A stretch of 12,891 bases of DNA from Candidatus Zixiibacteriota bacterium (GCA_030613505.1 JAUWLW010000064.1:1-12891), one strand, 5' to 3'. Positions 578-12,726 are shown, counted from the first letter of the stretch. Made by a program: numbers and translations. Notes: generated from the letters alone by a model not told the origin.

Positions 578-2518
578 TCAATCGCCGGGATAAACGGCCG
601 TCAGCGTCCGGAGCTCCCGCGCGGCGCGGTCGTCCTCGCCCGAACGGTAATAAAGCTTTATCAGACCCTCCCGCGCCCCTCGAAACGTGGGGTCCAACGC
701 CAACGCGCGTCGGTAGTGGGCGGCCGCCGCGTCGACGTCGCCTCGTCCTTCGGCGTAGGCGCCAAGGGTGTTCTGCACCTTCTCGGCCCGGGCGCCGAGG
801 CGCTCCGCCAATTCCAGGCAATATACGGCCCGGGCGGAGTCGCCCCCGCGCGTCCGGTCGCGGCTCTCGTCGACGTATTGCACGCCCAGGTACGTCGCGG
901 TCCAGTAGTCAGCGTACGGCGGCGGCTCCGGCGCGACGCCGCGGCGACGGTAGAGCGACCACCAATCGCGCGCCGTCGGTTCCTCGCCCGGCGGTACCAA
1001 CCGCCAGACGCGGGCGCGCTTCTCGTACCGGTAGCCGTAGTACCGGGGCGGCCCGAACGGGTAGAGCATGTAGTAGTCGCGCCGGCGGTCGCGCACCAAC
1101 GCCATAAACGCCTCGACGTACCGGTCGGCGGAAGCCGCCGCCGGCATATATAAGTACTCCTCGCCGACCAGGTCGAAGAAGTCGTGGAACTGGCGCGTCC
1201 CGGCGGCGTCGACGAAGTAAACGTCCGGCCGGGCGAACGCGGCCGTCACGACCGTGGCCAAAGGCCCCGTGACGGCGCTGCCCTCGAAGCTGAGTATAAA
1301 GGTGGCGCGCGGGCCGACGACGCGCAGAACGTTGCCGGCGGCGTCCTCCGCGTACGGGAAATCGGACCGGTCCGCGGGGCCGAACCGCGCCGGGACCGCG
1401 GCCGCGGCGACGACGACCGAGACCAAGGCCGCGGCCACCCCGGGCCAAAAACGCCACCTCGCCAGCCGCCGGCACAACCACACGACGCACGCCCCGCAGG
1501 CCAACGCCCACGCCAGATACAGCGCCGCGTACCACGTCCGCCAATTGGCCGAATAATAGTTCAGGATGAACGCGGCCGCGCCCGCCGCAGCTCCGAACGC
1601 CAGCATCGCGCCTCTCGGCCTTCGCCGGAAAAGCCAGCCGGCCCCCAAAACGCCCGCGCCCAAGCCGAGCCACCCGAACTGGCTGAGAAAAACGTCTCCG
1701 GCCATTTTCGCTCGAGCCGCGACCAGCGCCGGCGTCGCGACGAAGAGCTCGTGCCGGTACACCTTCCCGGTTACGTGATAGAAAAAATTTCTCAGACTAT
1801 CGGGCTTGCCCCAGTCGGTGGCCACGCCCGCAACCGACCTTACGGGTAAATAAAGGTAGGCGGAGAGGGCCAGCGCGAACGCCGCCGCGGCCACACCCCA
1901 CGTCCGCGCGGTAACGAGCCGCCGGCCGCCGGCCCAAAACGCGTACGCCACGTACGCCGGCAGGAACGCGGCCTGCTGGGGGTGAACACCGCACGCCAGG
2001 CCGTAGACGAAGGCCGCGGCGAAAAAGGGCCGGTCGTCGGGCCCCCCGCCCCAAACCAGCAGCGAAAAAACGGTGGCCGCGGTAAGGGCCAGGCTCAGCG
2101 TGTAGACCTCGGCCACCGTCGCCTGGGCCCAGACCGCCGGCGCCGAACCCACCGCCAACGTCGCGACGGCCGCGCCCGCGATGCCGAAGCCGTCGGCGCC
2201 GTAAAGCCGCGCCGCCGCCAGGACGACGAAAAAAGCCGCGGCCGCTCCCGCGCCCGCGCTGAAAAGATTTAAACCGGCTACGGCGCCCAACCCGGGCAGC
2301 GCCGTGAAGATATACGACGAACACAAGTAGGCCGGGTAACCCGGCGCGTAACAATTCCCCAATAGGCTCACCGAGCGAACGTAGATCCCGGAATCTTGCC
2401 AGTACGCGCCGCGGCAACAGCTCGAGGCGTACAGAACGAAAAAAAAGGCCGCCCCGGCGAGGGCCGAAAGGACTACCGCCCGGCGTCCGAGCGGTCCGAC
2501 CTCGGAACCAGTTGTCAT
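578..2518 (-). CDS. DUF2723 GT-C-like membrane protein with C-terminal TPRs
   Basis: The 646-residue protein begins with a membrane segment (about 12-32) followed by a first periplasmic loop containing YWQDSG (39-44), APGYP (58-62) and GLNLFSA (82-88). This order (WQDSGE, HPPGYP, RxNLFSA) is characteristic of DUF2723, a family related to GT-C polyprenyl-phosphate-sugar glycosyltransferases such as TMEM260. Many hydrophobic helices follow to about residue 380, then a soluble part. At about 588-617 NTLGAYAEGRGDVDAAAAHY and the residues after it read as a TPR unit, with partial repeats on either side. The likely role is transfer of a lipid-linked sugar at the outer face of the inner membrane; this is family-level inference and the substrate is unknown. 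The usual HPPGYP is altered to YAPGYP. The gene starts 28 bp after the GH113-like lipoprotein gene, so the two are probably cotranscribed. The ATG has only a weak GAGAG before it. Confidence 0.8.
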   Translation of the reverse strand: MTTGSEVGPLGRRAVVLSALAGAAFFFVLYASSCCRGAYWQDSGIYVRSVSLLGNCYAPGYPAYLCSSYIFTALPGLGAVAGLNLFSAGAGAAAAFFVVLAAARLYGADGFGIAGAAVATLAVGSAPAVWAQATVAEVYTLSLALTAATVFSLLVWGGGPDDRPFFAAAFVYGLACGVHPQQAAFLPAYVAYAFWAGGRRLVTARTWGVAAAAFALALSAYLYLPVRSVAGVATDWGKPDSLRNFFYHVTGKVYRHELFVATPALVAARAKMAGDVFLSQFGWLGLGAGVLGAGWLFRRRPRGAMLAFGAAAGAAAFILNYYSANWRTWYAALYLAWALACGACVVWLCRRLARWRFWPGVAAALVSVVVAAAAVPARFGPADRSDFPYAEDAAGNVLRVVGPRATFILSFEGSAVTGPLATVVTAAFARPDVYFVDAAGTRQFHDFFDLVGEEYLYMPAAASADRYVEAFMALVRDRRRDYYMLYPFGPPRYYGYRYEKRARVWRLVPPGEEPTARDWWSLYRRRGVAPEPPPYADYWTATYLGVQYVDESRDRTRGGDSARAVYCLELAERLGARAEKVQNTLGAYAEGRGDVDAAAAHYRRALALDPTFRGAREGLIKLYYRSGEDDRAARELRTLTAVYPGD

Positions 2519-2546
2519 CTCTCGGCGCTCACGTCAACGTTGCGGT

Positions 2547-3590
2547 TCAATAGCTGTTGTAATAGTCGGAGAGTACCTTCTCGGCGAGCTTGCGCTTGGG
2601 CGTCCACTTGTTGTTCTTGGGGCCGCCCGCGTTCACGCCCCAGTGGTCCCAACACCATATATATATGCCGCGCAGCCAGCGCCGCGCCGGCGCCGTCATG
2701 AACAGCGCCTTGTAGCATATCTCCTGCGCTTCAGTGTCGACCTCGTCGCTCTTCGTAACCGCCGGCGTCCTCCAGCACGCGGGCCGGGACTGGTAGCCGA
2801 CCTCCGTAAAAATGACCTCCTTGTCGGCCAGGCGCGCGCGGTAACGCCAATTCTCCATCTCGTCCAGCGGCCCGTCCCACGCCCTCACCAGAGTCGATAG
2901 GCCGACGTCGTACTTCTTGGACAGCGGGAAGTACACGTCGACGCCGACGTAGTCGACCGCGTCCCAGAAGCAAACGTCCTGGTAGACGCGCCAGTGGGCG
3001 GCGTACGTCAACGGGCCGTCGTATCGGTCCCGCGCCGAGTCGACGACGTCGAGCCACCGGTTGCGCTCTTTCTTATCACACCACGAATATTCGACGCCGA
3101 CGCATAACATCTCCACGCCCTCGTCCGCGGCCATTTCGGCGTAGTGGTTGACGAAGCGCCGGTAGGAGTCGAACCACGTGTCGGCGCTCCTCGGCGCGAA
3201 GGTCGCGCGCCACACGCCGTCGCGGCTGTTGACGTACGGCTTGAGCATTACTTTGGCGCCCTTGGCGTGGAGGAACCGGATCACTTCGCGGACGCTCTCG
3301 TCGGAGGCCGTCTTCTCCGCGTCGGGCGCGATAAGGGTGGAGGTGCGGTTCTGCTGGTACCATACGGCCACCAGCGCCACCCACTCCACGCCCGCGGCCA
3401 GCATGCGCTCCAGGTTCTTCTTTTGGCCGGGTATTTCGGACAACGGTTCCTTACGCGGGAAGTACGTTATGCCGCGTTGGAAGGCCGGGTTCTCCGAAAC
3501 AACCGGTTTGTAGGGAATATCTTCGTAGGAGCCGGCTGCGGCCGCGCCGCAGCCGGCGACGGCCGCCGCGAGCGCCGACGCGACGAGCAA
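2547..3590 (-). CDS. GH113-like TIM-barrel glycoside hydrolase, predicted lipoprotein
   Basis: The start is a TTG at 3590, with GGAGG (3597-3601) 6 nt upstream; no better start lies in the open frame above it. The N-terminus is hydrophobic and ends in the lipobox VAGC (Cys14), so I predict signal peptidase II processing and a lipid anchor. The n-region lacks the usual positive charge, which is odd. The body resembles GH113 TIM barrels: FQRGITYFPR near 38-46, GAKVMLKPYV (111-120), CVGVEYSW with Glu167 as candidate acid/base, YVGVDVYFPL (214-223), IFTEVGYQS with Glu263 as candidate nucleophile, and IYIWCWDHWG (309-318). Known GH113 members are beta-mannanases; the substrate here is not shown by sequence. 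At 347 residues it is a complete single domain. It follows dnaJ by 121 bp and precedes the DUF2723 gene by 28 bp, suggesting a glycan-handling pair at the cell envelope. Confidence 0.8.
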   Translation of the reverse strand: MLVASALAAAVAGCGAAAAGSYEDIPYKPVVSENPAFQRGITYFPRKEPLSEIPGQKKNLERMLAAGVEWVALVAVWYQQNRTSTLIAPDAEKTASDESVREVIRFLHAKGAKVMLKPYVNSRDGVWRATFAPRSADTWFDSYRRFVNHYAEMAADEGVEMLCVGVEYSWCDKKERNRWLDVVDSARDRYDGPLTYAAHWRVYQDVCFWDAVDYVGVDVYFPLSKKYDVGLSTLVRAWDGPLDEMENWRYRARLADKEVIFTEVGYQSRPACWRTPAVTKSDEVDTEAQEICYKALFMTAPARRWLRGIYIWCWDHWGVNAGGPKNNKWTPKRKLAEKVLSDYYNSY

Positions 3591-3595
3591 CCTAA

Positions 3596-3632
3596 ACCTC
3601 CGCGCGCAACGAGAAGTCGCGTTCGCGGAGGT
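3596..3632 (-). promoter_or_regulatory. Inverted repeat sequestering the SD of the GH113-like gene
   Basis: Read on the minus strand, ACCTCCGCG (3632-3624) is perfectly complementary to CGCGGAGGT (3604-3596), a 9-bp stem with a 19-nt loop. The second arm contains the whole GGAGG ribosome-binding site of the TTG start at 3590. Additional pairing AACG/CGTT is possible inside the loop. In RNA this would hide the SD, so translation may depend on temperature, a ligand or translation from upstream. The stem is read directly; the regulatory role is inference. Confidence 0.5.
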
Positions 3633-3711
3633 AGAATAGAACCGCGGGTGCCGATTTGAGAGCCGACCGCGCGCGAAGTACCGGTTTGCCTTTATAATAC
3701 GGAATCGCCCC

Positions 3712-4824
3712 CTACGAGGTCCACCCCATCGCCTGGGCGTACTTCTCGAACAGCTCCCGCTGCTCCTTGTTCATCTTCTTGGACGTGGCGATCTTAACCT
3801 CGACGTAGTGGTCGCCGACGCGTCCGGTGCGCTCGTCGCGGATGCCCTTCCTCTTGACGCGGATCTTCTTGCCGGCCTCGATGCCGGCCGGGACCTTGAC
3901 GTTGACTTTGCCTTGGACGGTATCCACGGCTTTCTTGGCGCCCAACAGCGCCTCGCCCAGATTGAGCTCGAGCTCGCCGTAGGTATCCAGGCCGTCGCGG
4001 CGGAAGCGCGCGTCGGCCTTGACGTTCACCGTGATGTAGAGGTCGCCCCGCAGGCCGCCGGCGCCGACGTTACCTTCGCCCTTCACGCGGATGACGCCGT
4101 CGTCTTTTATGCCCGCGGGTATCCGTACCTTCAGCGGCTTTTTGGCCCGGCGGACGCCGGCACCCTTGCACTCCGGACAAGGTTTCTCGACCACCGTCCC
4201 TTTGCCGGCGCACGTCGGGCACGCCCGCGTTACGCCGAACTGGCCCAGGCCGACGGTCACGGTGCCCCGCCCCTCGCACTGGGGACAGGTCTTCGGCTGC
4301 GTCCCCGGCGCGGCGCCCGTTCCGGCGCAGGTCATGCAGGGCTCGTCGCGGGCCAGGTTTATCTTCGCCGTCCCGCCCTTCACCGCCGTCGAGAACGGGA
4401 CCTCGACCGTCATCTCGACGTCGCGGCCCGCGGCAGGTTCGGCCTTCGGCGCGCCGGCTTTCCCCCGCCGGAAGATCTGGTCGAAGAGACCCCCCAGGCC
4501 GCCCAAGTCGCCGACGTCGAATTGAAACGTCTGGCCGCCGCCCGGTTGCGAGTACCGCGAGAAGTCGAATCCGCCGGCGCCGGGGCCGCCGGCGCCGGCG
4601 AAGGCGCCGTACTTACGCAACATGTCGTACTCCTGGCGCTTCTTGGGGTCCGAGAGCGTCTGGTAGGCCTCGTTGACGTCCTTGAATTTCTCGGCGGCGT
4701 CGGCGTCGCCGTTGCGGTCGGGATGGTACTTCATCGCCAGGCTTCGGTACGCCTTCTTTATCTCGTCCTCGGAGGCCTTCTCCGAAACGCCGAGTACCGC
4801 ATAATAATCCTTATTGGCCGCCAT
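3712..4824 (-). CDS. dnaJ: Chaperone protein DnaJ
   Basis: The 370-residue protein is a complete class I (type A) J-protein. The J domain runs about 5-70 with HPD at 34-36, the motif that stimulates DnaK ATPase. A glycine/phenylalanine-rich linker follows (about 73-118). The zinc region has four CxxCxGxG-type repeats starting at Cys163, Cys180, Cys202 and Cys216, enough for two zinc sites. The C-terminal substrate-binding domains begin near 228 with [19 protein letters not shown] and include GDLYITV. The protein delivers unfolded clients to DnaK in the cytoplasm. It lies 18 bp after grpE on the same strand; no dnaK or hrcA is inside the window. The ATG at 4824 has no convincing SD, so translational coupling to grpE is possible. 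No clear terminator follows, so read-through into the GH113-like gene is possible. Confidence 0.97.
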
Positions 4825-4842
4825 AATGCGATTAAACCACGC

Positions 4843-5451
4843 CTAAATTTCGACGTCCCTTTCTTCCACCCCGCCCGGCGGCGCGCCGGCCTGCCCCGCT
4901 CCCGTATCGCCGGCGACGCAAACTTCAACCTTGACCGGTTTGAGGAGCACGCCCTTAAATTTATAGCCGGGACTCACAACCCGGGCGATCACGTCCGGCG
5001 GCAGCTCCGGGTCGCACGTCGCCAACACCGCCTCGTGGACCTCCGGGTCGAAGAGGTCGCCTCGGCTTGCGGGTGTGGCCTCCAGGCCTTCGTTGCGCAG
5101 AACGTCGTATATCTTACGGTCGAGCATGCGGATGGAGTCCACGTGGTGCTGCGGTACCGCTTCGTCGGCATCCGCGGCGTCAATGGCGCGCGTCAAGTCG
5201 TCGAGCACGGGCAGCAGCTTCTCCACTATGCCCCGCGCCGCGGCGGCGCACGCGCGTTCGTAGTCCCGGGCCAACCTCTTGCGCGTGTTATCGAGGTCCG
5301 CGGCCCGGCGGAGCAACTCGTCGTTCGCCGCCGCCGCCGCCGCTTCGGCCGCGGCCAGCTTCTCCTCCAGCTCGGCCAGTCGGGCCTTCAGAGCTTCGAC
5401 GTCGGCCGTGTCGCCCCACGGGATTTCCATCTTTCTCTTTTTTCTATCCAT
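4843..5451 (-). CDS. grpE: GrpE nucleotide exchange factor
   Basis: GrpE releases ADP from DnaK as a homodimer in the cytoplasm. The protein has the expected layout: a basic N-terminus, a long alanine/glutamate-rich coiled coil (about 16-75) containing DNTRKR (54-59) and RDYERA, a helical dimer region, and the C-terminal beta domain with FDPEVHEAV (134-142) and GYKFKGVLLKPVKVEV (162-177). With the ATG at 5451 it has 202 residues, close to the usual length. The start is uncertain. A TTG at 5475 in frame has AAGGA 8 nt upstream, but that SD would sit at the very 5' end of the transcript from the promoter at 5496-5524. The ATG at 5451 has no SD, and another ATG lies at 5430. It is followed 18 bp later by dnaJ. 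Confidence 0.93.
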   Translation of the reverse strand: MDRKKRKMEIPWGDTADVEALKARLAELEEKLAAAEAAAAAANDELLRRAADLDNTRKRLARDYERACAAAARGIVEKLLPVLDDLTRAIDAADADEAVPQHHVDSIRMLDRKIYDVLRNEGLEATPASRGDLFDPEVHEAVLATCDPELPPDVIARVVSPGYKFKGVLLKPVKVEVCVAGDTGAGQAGAPPGGVEERDVEI

Positions 5452-5495
5452 AATAGACCCGACTCGGAGTTGCAACGGTACGTTCCTTGAAATCC

Positions 5496-5606: not shown

Positions 5607-7031
5607 ATGGCGATACAATTCTACAACACGTTGACGCGCCGGCTCGAACCCTTCGAGCCGCTGGAGGCCGGCACGGTCCGGATATATACTTGCGGCCCCA
5701 CGGTCTACGACCGCGCCCACGTCGGGAACTTCCGTACCTTCACGTTCGAAGACCTGCTGCGGCGGTTCCTCCGATGGAAAGGTTTCGACGTCGTCCAGGT
5801 CATGAACTTGACGGACGTCGACGACAAAACCATCCGCGGCTCCCGGGAGGCCGGCGTCAGCCTCGCCGAATATACCGAACCGTACATAAACGCGTTTTTC
5901 GAGGACGTCGACACGCTCCGCATGCAACGGGCCGAGCTCTACCCCCGGGCGACGGAACACATCCCCGAGATGATCGAGCTCGTAAAGAGACTCGAGGCCG
6001 CCGGCCACACGTACGTCTCGGAAGGCGCGGTCTACTACCGGATATCCAGCTTCCCGGGGTACGGCAAGTTATCCGGAATGGATATTGCGTCGCTCCGACC
6101 CGGCGCGCGCGTCGACGTCGACGAGTACGCCAAGGAGGAGGCGCGGGACTTCGCGCTGTGGAAACCCTACGGCGAGGGCGAGGCCGGCTGGGATTCGCCG
6201 TGGGGGCCCGGCCGCCCCGGATGGCACGTCGAGTGCTCGGCCATGTCCATGAAATACCTGGGCGAGACGTTCGACATCCACGCCGGCGGCGTGGATAACA
6301 TCTTTCCTCACCACGAAAACGAGATCGCCCAAAGCGAGGGCGCCACCGGCAAACCGTTCGCGCGTTACTGGCTCCACGCCGAGCACCTCATCATCGACGG
6401 CCGGTCCATGTCGAAATCGCTGGGCAACTATTACACCCTCCGCGACTTACTCGCCAAGGGTTACGACCCACTGGCCATCCGATACCTGCTGCTCTCCACC
6501 CATTACCGCAAGCGGTTGAACCTGACGTTCGAAGTCCTCGACGCCGCGGCCGCGGCCACAACCCGCCTTTCCGACTTCTACCGCCGCGTTTCCGAATACG
6601 ACGGCGACGGCGGCGAAGACCTGGCCGACGAAGTCGGCGAGGCCGCGGCCTCGTTCGAATCGTCGCTCGCATCGGACCTGGGCATCGCGGAAGCGCTGGC
6701 CGCCATCTTCGACCTGGTCACCGAGGTCAACCGGGCGATGGACCGGGGCGCGCTCTCGGCCGCCGGCCGCGGAAAACTCCTCGCCGCGTTGGATTCCTTC
6801 GACCAAGTCCTGGACGTATTCCACGCCACGCCGGTAGCCCTCGACGAAGAAATCGAAAAGTTGATAGCCGAACGCGAAGCCGCCCGACGCGTAAAAGATT
6901 ACGCCCGGGCGGACGCGGTGCGGGAAAAGCTTTCGGCGCTGGGGATCACGCTCGAAGACACGCCGGAGGGCGTACGATGGAAAAAGCGGGCCGTAAAAGC
7001 CGCGGGAGAAAATGGGCCCGACGGCGGTTGA
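5607..7031 (+). CDS. cysS: Cysteinyl-tRNA synthetase
   Basis: This 474-residue class I aminoacyl-tRNA synthetase attaches cysteine to tRNA-Cys using ATP. The HIGH signature appears as HVGN (38-41) within CGPTVYDRAHVGNFRTF, and the KMSKS loop as SMSKS (267-271) followed by LGN. The four zinc ligands that select cysteine are all present as Cys29, Cys210 (GWHVECSAM), His235 and Glu239 (GGVDNIFPHHENEIAQSE), each one residue later than in E. coli. A DALR-type helical region and the anticodon-binding end (DYARADAVREKLSALGITLEDT) complete it. Length matches the family. The ATG at 5607 is kept because FYNTL must be included, although GGAG abuts it with no spacer, so initiation may be inefficient. It diverges from grpE and ends at a hairpin at 7050-7068. 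Confidence 0.97.
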   Translation: MAIQFYNTLTRRLEPFEPLEAGTVRIYTCGPTVYDRAHVGNFRTFTFEDLLRRFLRWKGFDVVQVMNLTDVDDKTIRGSREAGVSLAEYTEPYINAFFEDVDTLRMQRAELYPRATEHIPEMIELVKRLEAAGHTYVSEGAVYYRISSFPGYGKLSGMDIASLRPGARVDVDEYAKEEARDFALWKPYGEGEAGWDSPWGPGRPGWHVECSAMSMKYLGETFDIHAGGVDNIFPHHENEIAQSEGATGKPFARYWLHAEHLIIDGRSMSKSLGNYYTLRDLLAKGYDPLAIRYLLLSTHYRKRLNLTFEVLDAAAAATTRLSDFYRRVSEYDGDGGEDLADEVGEAAASFESSLASDLGIAEALAAIFDLVTEVNRAMDRGALSAAGRGKLLAALDSFDQVLDVFHATPVALDEEIEKLIAEREAARRVKDYARADAVREKLSALGITLEDTPEGVRWKKRAVKAAGENGPDGG

Positions 7032-7096: not shown

Positions 7097-7125
7097 TTGA
7101 CACCACTGCCCGAGGATGTTACAAA
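7097..7125 (+). promoter_or_regulatory. Strong sigma70 promoter for the first secreted paralogue
   Basis: A perfect TTGACA (7097-7102) is 17 nt from TACAAA (7120-7125), with TGT immediately before the -10 (extended type). An A/T-rich tract (about 7067-7096) lies directly upstream, as an UP element would. Transcription should start near 7132, giving a leader of about 90 nt. Confidence 0.75.
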
Positions 7126-7137
7126 CTAATCTAGGAG

Positions 7138-7213
7138 CCCCGGGCGTATTCGGCCGGGGGAATTTTTCCCTGAGCGGCGTTAGCCAACGGGCTAACAGAA
7201 AATAAATAGGAGG
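7138..7213 (+). promoter_or_regulatory. Structured 5' leader with possible attenuator
   Basis: Within the predicted leader, CCCCGG (7138-7143) pairs with CCGGGG (7154-7159), with inner CG/CG pairs closing a TATT loop. A T5 run (7163-7167) follows, so it resembles an intrinsic terminator. GGGAA-TTT-TTCCC (7158-7170) could form an alternative hairpin. A second perfect stem, GTTAGCC-AACG-GGCTAAC (7179-7196), precedes the SD AGGAGG (7208-7213). I recognise no known riboswitch class. Confidence 0.4.
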
Positions 7214-7221
7214 TTTTGTTC

Positions 7222-7905
7222 ATGAAGAGGTTCGCTTTAGTAATCGGCTTAGTAGCCTGCGTCGCCGCCGGCGCGTGGGCGGCCGACGTCGTCGTCGACC
7301 GCGCCCAGGCCAGCCCGTCGGTAGTGGAGGTGCCCGGCTACGACGACACCGTTGAGCTGTCTTGGGATTCGGGCGTCGGTAGATGGTGGCTTATATGGTT
7401 CACCGGCGCCGATACCTGGGTCGGCAACGATTTCGACGTGTCGACCGTTAAAACTTACGGCGGCCTTAAGACGATGCGGGTCCAACTACGCAACAACTGG
7501 CCGAACACGCAATGGGACGGCGGCCGCATAGCCGTCTTCTCGTTCGCCGGCGGCGTTCCGGGCTCGATTATGTGGCCCACCGGCGGCACGCCCAAATTCG
7601 TCATGCCCACCGGCGCGACCGGCTGGAAAGACTTCGACGTCACCTACGTACTCTCCGGCGCCAAGAAGTTTATGGCGGCTTGGGAGCAATTCTACAATTA
7701 TCCCAACGCCGACCCGTTCATGCTCGACAACAACCCCACCTTTATGGGCCACTCGTGGCAGTACCTCAGTGGACAATGGGCGCCGTTTTCGCAAGATAAC
7801 GTCTTGCCGTATCGCAACGTTATGATACGCATGATAGTCGACAACGACCAGAACCCTGCCGTGTCGCCGTCGAGTATCGGCCGCGTAAAGGCGCTCTACT
7901 ACTAG
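7222..7905 (+). CDS. Secreted beta-sandwich-like protein, tandem paralogue 1
   Basis: The 227-residue protein starts at an ATG 8 nt after AGGAGG. A signal peptide (MKRFALVIGLVACVAAGAWA, then AD) predicts export. The mature part has alternating hydrophobic strands and many Trp, Tyr, Gly and Asn residues. Motifs shared with the next two genes are WDSG, TWVGNDFDVSTVKTY, NNWPN, WDG, FSFAGGVPGS, MWP, AWEQFYNYPNADP, HSW, and a C-terminal IGRVKALYY. The layout resembles secreted beta-sandwich modules seen in FCB-group proteins (strand, GGVPG loop, EQxYxYPN, final short basic tail), but I do not recognise a named family. It has no cysteine after the signal peptide. Its own promoter and terminator make it monocistronic. 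Function is unknown; a surface or secreted binding or structural role is a guess. Confidence 0.85.
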   Translation: MKRFALVIGLVACVAAGAWAADVVVDRAQASPSVVEVPGYDDTVELSWDSGVGRWWLIWFTGADTWVGNDFDVSTVKTYGGLKTMRVQLRNNWPNTQWDGGRIAVFSFAGGVPGSIMWPTGGTPKFVMPTGATGWKDFDVTYVLSGAKKFMAAWEQFYNYPNADPFMLDNNPTFMGHSWQYLSGQWAPFSQDNVLPYRNVMIRMIVDNDQNPAVSPSSIGRVKALYY

Positions 7906-7928
7906 CGGAACGCTTCGATGCGTCATTT

Positions 7929-7955
7929 AAGGGAGCCTAACCGGCTCCCTTTTCT
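7929..7955 (+). terminator. Intrinsic terminator after paralogue 1
   Basis: AAGGGAGCC (7929-7937), loop TAACC and GGCTCCCTT (7943-7951) form a perfect 9-bp stem followed by TTCTT. It lies 23 nt after the stop codon. Confidence 0.85.
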
Positions 7956-7972
7956 TGCGTCCGCTTTTGCGA

Positions 7973-8001
7973 TTGACACTCCGTTCCCGCGCCGTTATAA
8001 T
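7973..8001 (+). promoter_or_regulatory. Perfect-consensus sigma70 promoter for paralogue 2
   Basis: TTGACA (7973-7978) and TATAAT (7996-8001) both match the consensus fully, with a 17-nt spacer. Transcription should begin at about 8007-8009, which coincides with the GTG start codon of the next gene. Confidence 0.85.
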
Positions 8002-8006
8002 GACGG

Positions 8007-8696
8007 GTGCTTAAGTTGCGCGAGGTTGCCGCGATCGCGGCCGCGGCCTTAACGATAACCGTCGCCGGCGCTGCCGACCACGTCGTCGAGCGCGCCGCCG
8101 CGGGCCCCGCGGCAGCCGCGCCCCGGGGTCGCGACGGCACGGTCGAGCTGCAGTGGGATTCCGGCAAGCCGTCGTGGCTTATCGCCTGGCGCTCCGGCGC
8201 CGGCACATGGGTCGGCAACGACTTCGACATCTCCACCGTCAAGACCTACCCCTACATCCAAAAAGTCCGCCTCTACTCCACCCCCACCTGGCCCAACGGC
8301 TCGTGGGACGGGTTCTACCTCGCCGTCTACTCCTTCGCCGGCGGCGTCCCGGGCTCGATGATGTGGCCCGCCGGCGGCCGGGGCAAGTACGTCAAAGGTT
8401 CAACGTCGGCGTACGGCTGGCAGGAATTCGGCGTGAATTGGTCTCTGCCCCCGGGCGTCCGGAAGTTCGTCGCCGCCGTGGAACAGTTCTACGATTACCC
8501 CAACTGCGACCCGCACCTCGTCGACGACAACGCGACCTTCCGCAAGCACTCGTGGGGTTATTACCAGGGCAACTGGCACCCGCTGTCGAATAAAACGGGC
8601 TATTACAACCTGATGCTGCGGGTAATCGTGGACGACGACCACAATCCCGGCGTCGCGCCCGCCACCGTGGGCCGAGTAAAAGCCTTGTACTATTAG
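8007..8696 (+). CDS. Secreted beta-sandwich-like protein, tandem paralogue 2, probably leaderless
   Basis: The 229-residue protein is the closest paralogue of its upstream neighbour. Shared blocks include TVELQWDSG, TWVGNDFDISTVKTY, TWPNGSWDGF, YSFAGGVPGSMMWP, AVEQFYDYPNCDP, KHSWGYYQGNW, LMLRVIV and C-terminal VGRVKALYY. The N-terminus MLKLREVAAIAAAALTITVAGA is a signal peptide, so export is predicted. The GTG at 8007 falls on the predicted transcription start of a perfect promoter, so there is no room for an SD and the mRNA would be leaderless. An in-frame TTG at 8016 is the next option and also lacks an SD. Alignment of the mature ends (AADVVVD versus AADHVVE) supports a start at or very near 8007. 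It has one cysteine in the YPNCDP motif. It ends at its own terminator. Function is unknown. Confidence 0.82.
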   Translation: MLKLREVAAIAAAALTITVAGAADHVVERAAAGPAAAAPRGRDGTVELQWDSGKPSWLIAWRSGAGTWVGNDFDISTVKTYPYIQKVRLYSTPTWPNGSWDGFYLAVYSFAGGVPGSMMWPAGGRGKYVKGSTSAYGWQEFGVNWSLPPGVRKFVAAVEQFYDYPNCDPHLVDDNATFRKHSWGYYQGNWHPLSNKTGYYNLMLRVIVDDDHNPGVAPATVGRVKALYY

Positions 8697-8718
8697 CGAG
8701 GACGTGAACGTTAGCGCC

Positions 8719-8749
8719 AAAGGGAGCCGATTGGCGCCCTTTTTTTTCC
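8719..8749 (+). terminator. Intrinsic terminator after paralogue 2
   Basis: AAAGGGAGCC (8719-8728), loop GATT and GGCGCCCTTT (8733-8742) pair at nine of ten positions (one A-G mismatch), with a long T run through 8747. An alternative GCGCCAA/TTGGCGC stem overlaps it. It lies 22 nt after the stop. Confidence 0.85.
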
Positions 8750-8768
8750 GGGGCCACAGCATCTTTAT

Positions 8769-8797
8769 TTGATACCTTTAAAGGGTATCGCTATAAT
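8769..8797 (+). promoter_or_regulatory. Near-consensus sigma70 promoter for paralogue 3
   Basis: TTGATA (8769-8774) and a perfect TATAAT (8792-8797) are 17 nt apart. Transcription should start near 8804, giving a leader of about 38 nt that contains GGGGAGG. Confidence 0.8.
8771..8789 (+). promoter_or_regulatory. Palindromic operator candidate inside the paralogue 3 promoter
   Basis: GATACCTTTAAAGGGTATC is an inverted repeat (GATACC and GGTATC arms, 7 nt apart) that includes the perfect palindrome CCTTTAAAGG (8775-8784). It overlaps the last four bases of the -35 and fills most of the spacer, a common repressor position. The cognate regulator is not in the window. Confidence 0.45.
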
Positions 8798-8841
8798 AGT
8801 CGCGCGAGCAGCAAGAGCACCCCAAACGGGGAGGTGCGGCG

Positions 8842-9474
8842 GTGAAGAGGCTAACAGCTTTTGCGATAAGTTGTATCCTGGTAGCGGCCGCGGCCGCCGG
8901 CGACGGCGGCCCGTACGAGCTGGGTTACGATAACGGCTCGAAAGCCTTGCAGCTGGCCTGGTATACCGGCGCCGGCTTCTGGGTCGGCAACGACTTCGAC
9001 ATCTCGACGTTGAAGACGAAGCACAACGTCGTTCGCGAGATGAAGTACTTCACGTCGCCCCACTGGCCCAACAGCGGCTACGACGGCTTCCGCATAGCGC
9101 TCTTCGGCCTCGCGGGCGGCGTCCCCGGCGCCAAGTTGTGGCCGGCGGGCGCGGAAGGCCGGTTCGTCAAGCCGGGCGGCGGCGAAGGCTTTAAAACCTT
9201 TTGGGTAAATTACTATTTGGAAACTACGAGATTCGTGGCCGCGGTCGAGCAATTTTACGACTACCCCAACTGCGACCCCTACTTTTGCGATTCCAATCCC
9301 ACGTTCCTGGCGCGCAGCTGGCAAAAGGAGCCCGAAAAACGCTGGGTGCCTCTTGCCGGCAAGAACCCCTATCCTTACCGCAACCTCATGCTGCGCGTAA
9401 TCGTCCGCATCGGCTACGCCGAGTTCGGCGTTACGCCCACGAGCCTGGGCCGCGTGAAGGCCTTGTATTATTAA
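8842..9474 (+). CDS. Secreted beta-sandwich-like protein, tandem paralogue 3
   Basis: The 210-residue protein starts at a GTG 7 nt after GGAGG (8830-8834). A short signal peptide MKRLTAFAISCILVAAAAA, then GDGG, predicts export. It is shorter than the other two because it lacks the spacer they carry between the signal peptide and the first WDSG-like motif (here YDNG). Shared blocks are FWVGNDFDISTLKT, HWPNSGYDGFRIALFGLAGGVPG, LWPAG, AVEQFYDYPNCDP, RSW, YRNLMLRVIV and C-terminal LGRVKALYY. Two cysteines flank the motif (NCDPYFC), which could form a disulfide after export; paralogue 1 has none and paralogue 2 has one. It has its own promoter with a palindrome and its own terminator. Function is unknown. 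Confidence 0.85.
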   Translation: MKRLTAFAISCILVAAAAAGDGGPYELGYDNGSKALQLAWYTGAGFWVGNDFDISTLKTKHNVVREMKYFTSPHWPNSGYDGFRIALFGLAGGVPGAKLWPAGAEGRFVKPGGGEGFKTFWVNYYLETTRFVAAVEQFYDYPNCDPYFCDSNPTFLARSWQKEPEKRWVPLAGKNPYPYRNLMLRVIVRIGYAEFGVTPTSLGRVKALYY

Positions 9475-9492
9475 AGCCTTACCCCACGGGCG

Positions 9493-9519
9493 AAGGCCGG
9501 CCACGGGCCGGCCTTTTTT
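9493..9519 (+). terminator. Intrinsic terminator after paralogue 3
   Basis: AAGGCCGGCC (9493-9502), loop ACG and GGCCGGCCTT (9506-9515) form a perfect 10-bp stem followed by more T (to 9519). It lies about 18 nt after the stop. Confidence 0.9.
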
Positions 9520-9578: not shown

Positions 9579-11648
9579 ATGCCCGAAAGGTATCTTGTAA
9601 CCAGCGCGTTACCGTACGCCAACGGCCCGCTGCACGTAGGCCAACTCGCCGGCGCGTACATGCCGGCGGACTCGTACGTCCGCTACCTGCGGCTGGCCGG
9701 CAAAGACGTCATCTATATCTGCGGCTCCGACGAGCACGGCGTACCCATAACGGTGCGCGCCGAAAAGGAAGGCGTGACGCCCCAGCGGCTCGTCGACCGC
9801 TTCCACGCCGGCTTGGTCAAAACCTTCGACGCCCTCCGCTTCACCTTCGACAACTACGGCCGCACCACGCTCCGCGAGACCCATTACCCGCTGTCGCAGC
9901 GGTTCTTCACCAACCTGTACGAGGGCGGATACGTCAAGCCGCTCGAGACGGAGCAGCTCTTCTGCGAGAACTGCAAACGCTTCCTGCCCGACCGCTACGT
10001 GGAGGGGACTTGCCCCCACTGCGGCGCCGGCGGCGCCCGGGGCGACCAGTGCGAGAATTGCGGCCGATGGCTAGCCGCGATGGAGTTGGGCGAGCCGCGG
10101 TGCAAGGTGTGCGACGGCGTGCCGGTCGTGCGGAAGACGACGCACTGGTACCTCGAGCTGCCCAAGTTCGCCGACCGCCTCCGCGAGTGGCTGGCCGGCA
10201 ATACCCACTGGCGCGACAACGTGCGGAAGTTCTGCCTGAGCTGGCTCGACGAGGGCCTGGCCGACCGCGCCATCACCCGCGACATCAACTGGGGGGTACC
10301 GGTGCCGCTCCCGGAGGCGCGGGGCAAGGTCCTCTACGTTTGGTTCGACGCCCCCATCGGTTACATAACGTCCACCATCGAATGGGCCCGGAAGCGCGGC
10401 CAGCCGGACCGCTGGAAGGATTACTGGCTCGACGCCGACACCAAACTGGTCCACTTCATAGGCAAGGACAACATCGTCTTCCACGCCCTCGTGTGGCCCG
10501 CGATGCTTATGGGCCAGCCGGACGGCTTCGTGCTGCCGTTCCAGATCCCGGCCAACGAGTTCCTCAACCTCGAGGGCCGGAAGATATCGACCAGCCGCAA
10601 CTGGGCGGTGTGGGTCGACGACGCGCTGGCCGACTTCCAAGTGGACGCGCTCCGCTATTACCTCACGGCCAACGCCCCGGAGACGCGCGACGCCGACTTC
10701 TCGTTCGCCGAGATGGCGACGAGGGTGAACTCGGAGCTGGCCGACATCTTCGGCAACTTCGTCAACCGGGCGCTCGCTTTCGTCAAGAATTACCTCGGCA
10801 ACGAGGTCCCGCGCGCGGGCGCGCTGCAGGCCCGGGACGAAGAACTGCTCAAGCTCGCGGGTCGCCAACTCGACGCCGAAGCGGCGCACGTCGAGAACTT
10901 CGAGATGCGCGCCGCGCTGGCCGCGGCTCTCGAGATCGCGCGGGCCGCCAATAAATATTACAACGACGAGGAGCCGTGGGCGTGGCGCGAGCGCGACCGG
11001 GGCCGCGCGGAGACGATATTGAACGTCAGCTGCCGGGTGGCCGCGACGCTCTCGACGGCGTTCGACCCCTTCACGCCCGTAGCCACGGCCGAGATACGCC
11101 GCATGCTCGGCATGGAGCGGGCGCTGAGCTGGGAAGAGGCCAAGACCGCCGCCGTCCCCGAGGGAGCGCCGCTGGGCGACGTTAAAATTTTAATAGAAAA
11201 AATCGACGACGGCAAAGTCGCCGCTCAATTGCGAGCTCTTGAAAAAAGCGCCGGCCTCGAGCCGGCGGCGGCGGTTCCCGAAGAGGAGAAAGAAACCGTA
11301 CCGACGGAGGAAGATATGAGCGAAGAACACGTAAATATGGACGACGTTAAGAAGCTGGGCATGGTCGTGGCCGAGGTCAAGACCTGCGAGCGGGTCGAGG
11401 GCGCCGACAAGCTGCTCAAGATGACGGTGGACGTGGGCGGCGAGGAGCGCCCCGTCGTCGCCGGCATCGCGCCCTGGTACGAACCCGAGGACCTGGTGGG
11501 CAAGAAGATTATCGTCGTAAAGAACATGGAACCGGCGACGATCCGCGGCGCGGAGTCCCGCGGCATGCTCCTCGCGGCCGAGCACCACGACGTCGTCAAA
11601 GTCCTGGCGCTGGACGGCGACCTGCCCGCCGGCGCCAACGTCCTTTAG
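9579..11648 (+). CDS. metG: Methionyl-tRNA synthetase with C-terminal tRNA-binding domain
   Basis: This 689-residue class I enzyme charges tRNA-Met (initiator and elongator). The ATG at 9579 has GGAG 6 nt upstream. The catalytic domain opens with YLVTSALPYANGPLHVGQLA, with HVGQ at 19-22 in place of HIGH, and has KISTS at 335-339 in place of KMSKS, followed by RNWAVW. That variant is, as I recall, typical of Bacteroidetes-like and archaeal-like enzymes. Two complete zinc knuckles are present: Cys129, 132, 145, 148 and Cys158, 161, 175, 178. The helical anticodon domain covers about 370-540, with NKYYNDEEPWAW near 458-469. An acidic linker (about 560-586) joins an EMAPII/Trbp111-type tRNA-binding domain (587-689), which ends in MEPATIRGAESRGMLLAA and beyond; this domain commonly promotes dimerisation. 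The length is normal. pta follows 79 nt later with no clear terminator between them, so cotranscription is plausible. Confidence 0.97.
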   Translation: MPERYLVTSALPYANGPLHVGQLAGAYMPADSYVRYLRLAGKDVIYICGSDEHGVPITVRAEKEGVTPQRLVDRFHAGLVKTFDALRFTFDNYGRTTLRETHYPLSQRFFTNLYEGGYVKPLETEQLFCENCKRFLPDRYVEGTCPHCGAGGARGDQCENCGRWLAAMELGEPRCKVCDGVPVVRKTTHWYLELPKFADRLREWLAGNTHWRDNVRKFCLSWLDEGLADRAITRDINWGVPVPLPEARGKVLYVWFDAPIGYITSTIEWARKRGQPDRWKDYWLDADTKLVHFIGKDNIVFHALVWPAMLMGQPDGFVLPFQIPANEFLNLEGRKISTSRNWAVWVDDALADFQVDALRYYLTANAPETRDADFSFAEMATRVNSELADIFGNFVNRALAFVKNYLGNEVPRAGALQARDEELLKLAGRQLDAEAAHVENFEMRAALAAALEIARAANKYYNDEEPWAWRERDRGRAETILNVSCRVAATLSTAFDPFTPVATAEIRRMLGMERALSWEEAKTAAVPEGAPLGDVKILIEKIDDGKVAAQLRALEKSAGLEPAAAVPEEEKETVPTEEDMSEEHVNMDDVKKLGMVVAEVKTCERVEGADKLLKMTVDVGGEERPVVAGIAPWYEPEDLVGKKIIVVKNMEPATIRGAESRGMLLAAEHHDVVKVLALDGDLPAGANVL

Positions 11649-11727: not shown

Positions 11728-12726
11728 GCGGATTTTTTTACGCGCATACGGAATAAAGGCCGCGAGAACCCCGTCCGCCTTTGCCTGCCGGAGGGAGGCG
11801 ACGAGCGCATCGTCGCCGCCGGCGCCCGGGCCCTCGAGCTCGGCTACGCCCGGGAAGTTACGCTGCTCACGCCCGACCGCGCCGCCGCGGAGGCCGCGGC
11901 GAAAAAGGCGGCCGTGGACCTCGGCCTGTTCACGTTGGTGGACCCCACCGAACACGAGGTCCGCAAGAAGGCCGCGGGCGCCTATTTCGAGGTGCGGGAG
12001 CGCGCCGGCATTACCGTCGAGGAGGCGTACGAGGCCGGGGGGAAGCCGGTTTACGCCGGCGCGTATCTGCTGCGGGCGGGCGAGGTGGACGCGGTCGTCG
12101 CGGGAGCCGCGACGGCGACGGCCGACGTGATGCGCGCGGCTCTCTACCTCGTCGGCCTCGCCCCCGGCATTACCACCCTGTCCACATTCTTCATCATGGC
12201 GACCGACAAGAAAGAGTTCGGCGAGGACGGCGCCCTCTTCTTCGCCGACTGCGCCCTGATCGCGTGCCCCAGCGCCGACCAGCTGGCGGAAATCGCCGTC
12301 GCGACGGCGCGCTCGTTCGAACGGCTCGCCGGCACGCCCGCGCGCGTCGCGATGCTCTCCTTCAGCACCAAGGGCTCGGCGGAACACGCCACGGTCCGTA
12401 AAGTCCAACGCGCGACCGACCTCGTGAGGGAGAAAGCCGCCGACGTCGTCGTCGACGGCGAGCTGCAAGCCGACGCGGCCCTCGTGCTGGAAGTCGGCGA
12501 GAAGAAAGCCCCCGGCAGCCCGGTCGCCGGGCGGGCCAACTGCCTCATCTTCCCGACGCTGCACGCCGGTAACATCGCGTATAAATTGGTGGAGCGGCTG
12601 GGCGGCGCCCGCGCCGTGGGGCCCATTACGCAAGGGCTCGCCAAGCCCATGAACGACCTGAGCCGCGGCGCCGAGGTGGACGACATCGTCGACGTCATCG
12701 CCGTCGCGGCGACGCAGGCGGCGTAA
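11728..12726 (+). CDS. pta: Phosphate acetyltransferase, start codon not canonical
   Basis: Pta interconverts acetyl-CoA and acetyl phosphate, linking with acetate kinase to make ATP or activate acetate. Conserved family blocks (numbering residue 1 at 11728) are [16 protein letters not shown] (14-29), DALFFADCA-like [18 protein letters not shown] (209-217), DGELQADAA (243-251), [12 protein letters not shown] (260-271) and [12 protein letters not shown] (303-314). The full frame gives 332 residues, normal for the short form. However, between the upstream in-frame stop (11674) and a GTG at 11914 there is no ATG, GTG or TTG. A strong SD, GGGAGG (11715-11720), lies 7 nt before a GCG codon at 11728, exactly where family proteins begin (xDFFTRIR). 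Starting at 11914 would delete the LPEGGDER block. The likely explanations are a GTG-to-GCG change, a sequencing error (a T7 run lies at 11733-11739) or an unusual start. I set the start at 11728 provisionally. Butyryltransferase is less likely. Confidence 0.88.

Follow-up and report, generated by a model that had tools for sequence, protein, structure and literature searches.

A stop-anchored C-terminal tag on exported proteins of Coatesbacteria: a candidate minimal signal for type IX secretion

The described systems closest to the element reported here are the C-terminal domains (CTDs) of type IX secretion, which are distinguished as type A (TIGR04183/PF18962), type B (TIGR04131), and type C and occupy the C-terminus of proteins exported by Sec in genomes that encode SprA, PorV, and PorU. 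The type IX signals known so far are folded domains with a length of about 70-80 residues, which is reduced to 40-51 in Prevotella intermedia (PMC10202324, PMC11969387); according to the review cited, CTD proteins are restricted to Bacteroidota. For the CTD of HBP35, the last 22 residues suffice to secrete GFP, and efficient secretion requires the last 13 (PMC10202324, PMC11969387). The short CTDs of P. intermedia, which possess the motifs B, D (GxY), and E as well as three predicted strands, represent a reduced type IX signal and are thought to bind PorV like the long ones (PMC11969387). The signals of sortases, exosortases, and rhombosortases (LPXTG, PEP-CTERM, GlyGly-CTERM) likewise place a short C-terminal motif on many exported proteins per genome. 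In these cases, the motif is followed by a transmembrane segment and a basic cluster.

We analysed a window of 12,891 nucleotides, which constitutes all of contig C58 in a genome of 2.86 Mb (93% complete, 100 contigs). The named relatives of three proteins encoded in tandem in this window originate from 'Candidatus Coatesbacteria bacterium bin961' (CP070633.1) and from the Zixiibacteriota deposit A-C077, which is why the host was placed in Coatesbacteria. All three proteins terminate in GRVKALYY; with the stop codon included, the window contains precisely three instances of this pattern, and none of 200 shuffles contains any. The initial annotation had taken the string for a motif of the three-gene family; it proved instead to belong to a C-terminal tag that unrelated exported proteins carry throughout the genome. 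The consensus of this tag, which comprises about 14 residues, is V-x-P-[TSA]-S-[LIVF]-G-[RK]-[VI]-K-A-L-[FY]-[RKY]-stop. The tag and the type IX CTDs both end in a basic residue after hydrophobic ones; however, the tag has no Ig-like fold and no CTD profile match, it coexists with at least 46 type A domains in the host genome, and it occurs in lineages other than Bacteroidota, to which the review confines CTD proteins. In comparison with the short CTDs of P. intermedia, it lacks GxY and is three times shorter. In contrast to the sortase-type signals, the tag constitutes the very last residues, and no hydrophobic segment follows it.

Weak matches found outside the lectin-like family, to which the three proteins belong, shared the last 20 residues only. 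The tag was counted by means of a degenerate nucleotide pattern encoding G-x-[hydrophobic]-K-x-x-[FY]-x-stop, and the reversed pattern served as control. In the host genome, 162 matches were obtained versus 3 in the control, which corresponds to about 160 tagged proteins and led us to reject a chance origin of the tag; three congeners gave 109, 140, and 174 matches versus 1, 0, and 2. In a sample of 78 tagged proteins of the host genome, positions outside the pattern were equally conserved, namely P (76/78), S (76/78), V (68/78), and R/K (75/78). Moreover, all synonymous codons are used in the tags, and 31 of 31 chosen tag DNA sequences were distinct. As synonymous codons vary freely, selection acts on the tag at the protein level; for the same reason, a nucleotide-level repeat or an RNA element at the gene ends was rejected.

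The 78 proteins form 14 body clusters, four of which hold 64 of them. Among the bodies are NHL propellers, lectin-like, CBM96/DNRLRE, and InhA-like MAM domains, and the tag is conserved while the bodies diverge to a mean column identity of 17%. According to a crude rule, and with spurious ORFs included in the control, a signal-peptide-like start is present in 62 of 74 tagged proteins versus 27 of 83 untagged long ORFs; in six of the 12 tagged exceptions, an in-frame TGA separates the signal peptide from the body. We regard it as very probable that the tag serves exported proteins as a C-terminal address of one kind or another. A C-terminal signal of outer-membrane barrels was rejected, as the bodies are propellers and lectin-like domains, and type I secretion is unlikely, as the tagged proteins have signal peptides. 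Literature searches, with most subscription journals and all preprints outside their reach, retrieved neither the tag strings nor a paper joining type IX secretion and Coatesbacteria.

In the Coatesbacteria family f5, the tag reads [ST]WGxIKALY-stop. Note that the pattern given above requires one residue after [FY] and misses f5, whose tag ends at Y; a pattern for this W form recovers it. Outside the phylum, nine families show an enrichment of the W-form pattern, with up to 62 copies per genome and zero or one in the controls. There, the form [ST]WGx[IV]KxLYR ends dozens of exported proteins, and in 20 stretches from five of these outside genomes the tag SWGxIKALYR terminates proteins of diverse kinds, most of them exported. 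Similar endings may also occur in other candidate phyla.

The distribution of the tag was compared with that of the type IX machinery, of which SprA_N is present in 73 of 242 genomes. SprA was found in 13 of 14 tag-enriched families versus 46 of 183 others (p=6e-7) and, outside the phylum, in 9 of 9 versus 46 of 183 (p=8e-6), where both p-values treat phylogenetically related families as independent and the enrichment threshold was picked after the counts were known. Members of the PorV family occur in 22 of 22 tag-bearing genomes tested, and none or weak ones in 7 SprA-negative genomes. Two tag-rich genomes, G002 (78% complete) and G004 (89% complete), gave no SprA_N match; PorV and PorU-like genes are present in both. 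Conversely, 52 of the 73 SprA-positive genomes show no tag enrichment. Therefore, SprA alone does not require the tag, and a more specific receptor, inside or outside the type IX system, must exist.

The host genome encodes a full-length SprA (313 bits, cut-off 200), ten PorV-family genes, and about 46 type A CTDs above the cut-off. A PorU-like ORF of 1493 aa scored 297 bits, which is under the family cut-off of 420; its gene ends in a type A CTD, and a PorV-family gene lies directly behind it (contig C8:1656-6225). On contig C76 (L109:1812-9797), two genes of the TolQ/ExbB type and one of the TolR/ExbD type lie directly behind SprA and possibly encode a proton motor beside the translocon. With the NCBIfam models, no CTD of type A, B, or C was detected on 40 tagged proteins or on the genes of the window, none of 30 CTD proteins carries the tag, and an alignment of the tag with the CTD motifs D and E was not convincing. 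In the genome G185, related NHL propellers end either in a tag-like sequence or in a CTD-like domain, which suggests, for propellers that are paralogues, that the two endings are alternative signals.

From the association of the tag with SprA we infer, with a slight preference over the contrary, that the type IX system reads the tag as a sorting signal. Sec would carry the protein across the inner membrane by means of the N-terminal signal peptide; the C-terminal tag would be recognised by type IX components encoded in the host genome, namely a PorV-type shuttle in the outer membrane and the translocon SprA, and the tagged protein would be delivered to the cell surface, where a lectin-like body could bind glycans. 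That a PorV-type shuttle reads a signal of 14 residues is plausible, because one CTD still directs secretion when reduced to its terminal 22 residues, with efficiency depending on the last 13. For the further proposition that the tag constitutes an undescribed minimal class of type IX signals, comprising about 14 residues and no folded domain, which operates in parallel to type A domains in Coatesbacteria and at least nine outside families and marks about 160 proteins in a 2.9-Mb genome, we see the arguments as evenly balanced. On the other hand, shared ancestry or the cell envelope may account for the joint occurrence of tag and type IX system. The tag could be a signal for sorting or anchoring that a machine still to be discovered recognises, such as a dedicated outer-membrane receptor or protease, and type IX would merely co-occur. 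The SprA-positive genomes devoid of tag enrichment, which indicate that something beyond SprA may be needed, and the lack of resemblance to any CTD speak for this explanation. Still, we consider it rather unlikely: a candidate for such a machine did not emerge, all tag-bearing genomes tested are rich in PorV-type shuttles, and the specificity could come from within the type IX system, since each genome has several PorV-like paralogues to supply it.

Two further explanations do without a transport signal. Hydrophobic residues at positions -9, -6, -3, and -2 and K/R at -7 and -5 would fit an amphipathic helix or strand, and the tag is disordered in a monomer model, as expected for a segment that folds on binding; it might thus be a retained assembly or adhesion peptide, which attaches unrelated exported proteins to a surface scaffold or a membrane. 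The exact C-terminal placement on unrelated proteins, which the stop-anchored pattern captures, and the mutual exclusion with type A CTDs are more reminiscent of a transport signal and make an adhesion peptide improbable. Finally, the three proteins could simply be a duplicated secreted family specific to the lineage, and the C-terminal likeness to other proteins could result from recent duplication or domain shuffling and have no role in sorting. Paralogous expansions are indeed large, as the concentration of the tagged proteins in four clusters illustrates. However, the body folds are unrelated, the tag persists where the bodies have lost most of their identity, and it recurs with different bodies in at least nine other families; this spread largely refutes duplication as the sole cause, to which we assign hardly any credence. 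A signal on so many proteins likely defines much of the cell surface in these uncultured bacteria. If type IX secretion reads it, the tag shows how small a part of the CTD the machine needs and extends tag-and-translocon secretion beyond Bacteroidota; hundreds of hypothetical proteins could then be annotated as exported cargo by a single simple rule, and a short handle to display proteins on the surface would be at hand. The tag makes the open question of a minimal type IX signal directly testable.

The three genes of the window lie on the plus strand and are flanked by housekeeping genes: cysS (5607-7031) precedes them, and metG (9579-11648) follows. Gene 1 (7222..7905) codes for an exported lectin-like paralogue of 227 aa and has an ATG start with GGAGG 8 nt upstream; its tag VSPSSIGRVKALYY is encoded at 7861..7902. 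Gene 2 (8007..8696; 229 aa) starts with GTG, and its tag VAPATVGRVKALYY (8652..8693) is disordered in the model (pLDDT about 47-58). Gene 3 (8842..9474; 210 aa) has a GTG start with GGGGAGG upstream and the tag VTPTSLGRVKALYY at 9430..9471. Genes 1 and 3 are 49-52% identical to gene 2, and by inspection all three proteins possess a signal-peptide-like N-terminus. These data confirm that positions 7222-9474 contain three tandem exported paralogues, which share, as had been claimed, the motifs WVGNDFD, GGVPG, and EQFYxYPNxDP. The rest of the window (578-5475 on the minus strand and 11914-12726) codes for a TMEM260-like glycosyltransferase with TPRs, a GH113-like lipoprotein-like protein, DnaJ, GrpE, and a phosphate acetyl/butyryltransferase.

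Searches of the three proteins against Pfam and NCBIfam gave no match, and a Pfam search of 34 family members, with E-values up to 5, found no lectin-like family. At the level of sequence, the designation of the family as unrecognised is therefore correct; it does not hold for the fold, and a body of unknown fold was rejected. The predicted structure of the gene 2 protein (pLDDT 82) was matched to the lectin-like domain of Cwp84 from Clostridioides difficile (PDB 4ci7, 4d59) with a Z of 17.9 for 177 aligned residues (rmsd 3.1, 14% identity). The second Cwp84 entry reached a Z of 16.8; phage tail proteins were the next group at about 12 (12.3), and carbohydrate-binding modules followed at about 7. 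This match was produced by a second structural aligner, whereas plain Foldseek was weak and returned nothing below 1e-3 with the body model. A profile search of PDB sequences retrieved a stretch of the lectin BP39L alone (E 1e-5, 41 residues), which carries no weight in the fold assignment. Thus, the bodies are predicted to be single-domain lectin-like beta-sandwiches. The Cwp84 domain, for which calcium ligands are described, is a putative carbohydrate-binding beta-sandwich and itself only a putative binder (PMC4089489); by analogy, the bodies may bind sugars. Whereas the Cwp84 domain is fused to a cysteine protease, the Coatesbacteria domain stands alone.

The sequence supports the proposal that the array is not an operon, but consists of three separate transcription units. 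As had been described, all promoters are near-consensus with a 17-bp spacer: TTGACA-17-TACAAA for gene 1 (7097..7125, 10/12; read by eye, TTGACA kept in relatives), the sigma-70-type TTGACA-17-TATAAT for gene 2 (7973..8001, 12/12), and TTGATA-17-TATAAT for gene 3 (8769..8797, 11/12), all on the plus strand. The additional claim of a strong hairpin terminator behind each gene applies to genes 1 and 3 only. The hairpin after gene 1 (7929..7951, plus strand; -17.0 kcal/mol, z -3.5) precedes TTTTCTT and is kept in two relatives, and the one after gene 3 (9492..9516, plus strand; -26.4 kcal/mol, z -3.2) precedes a T run. The terminator-like hairpin after gene 2 (8719..8742, plus strand; -13.3 kcal/mol, z -0.66) folds no better than shuffles and stands out mainly through its eight T's. 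In the upstream regions of related species, the promoter hexamers are retained, and so is the first terminator.

The leaders differ in type. The leader of gene 1 (7126-7221) is about 100 nt long and contains the 18-nt hairpin GTTAGCC-AACG-GGCTAAC (7179..7196, plus strand), which is present in four species with a compensatory change in one relative; an Rfam search of the window, this hairpin included, gave no match. In the same leader, a conserved TTTCC is predicted to pair with the GGAGG ribosome-binding site (four sequences, weak covariation), which could possibly hide the latter. In three species, 5 nt separate the GTG of gene 2 from the preceding -10 box; because this distance is kept although the flanking sequence has diverged, the mRNA is probably leaderless. 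The leader of gene 3 is short and includes a ribosome-binding site. A structured, a missing, and a short leader would fit separate control, and a tandem duplication under selection for independent expression, as suggested in the initial annotation, is plausible. Separate promoters might allow the members of the family to be expressed under different conditions.

A census of copies, which had been proposed together with the first description of the locus, gave 17 in the host genome, organised in arrays of six on contig C12, four on contig C100, and the three of the window, plus singles. Among 61 genomes searched, the family was found in ten, all of the same phylum; the copies in f5 are distant (28-34% identity). 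A-C077 keeps the order cysS, gene 1, gene 2, gene 3, metG with one extra gene before metG. This gene (L078:4672-5493) is unrelated to its neighbours, codes for a propeller-like protein, and carries the tag variant PASLGAVKALFQ.

A further observation concerns eight tagged genes of one family, each of which is interrupted by an in-frame TGA. The position of this TGA is the same in all eight, in most of them directly behind a cysteine codon (...P-x-x-G-C-TGA-G). Six of the genes are located on contig C56 (L089, about 28.0-33.3 kb); the others are at C7 L023:988 and C56 L205 17866-17913 (minus strand). TGA is also a normal stop codon in the host genome, and no tRNA-Sec was detected in the about 460 kb of this genome that were scanned. 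The eight genes are candidates for Cys-Sec selenoproteins. One paralogue has Gly-Gly at the TGA site, and a hairpin GGxxCCAGG-nnn-CCUGGxxCU, which shows some covariation, is found 19-38 nt downstream of the TGA.
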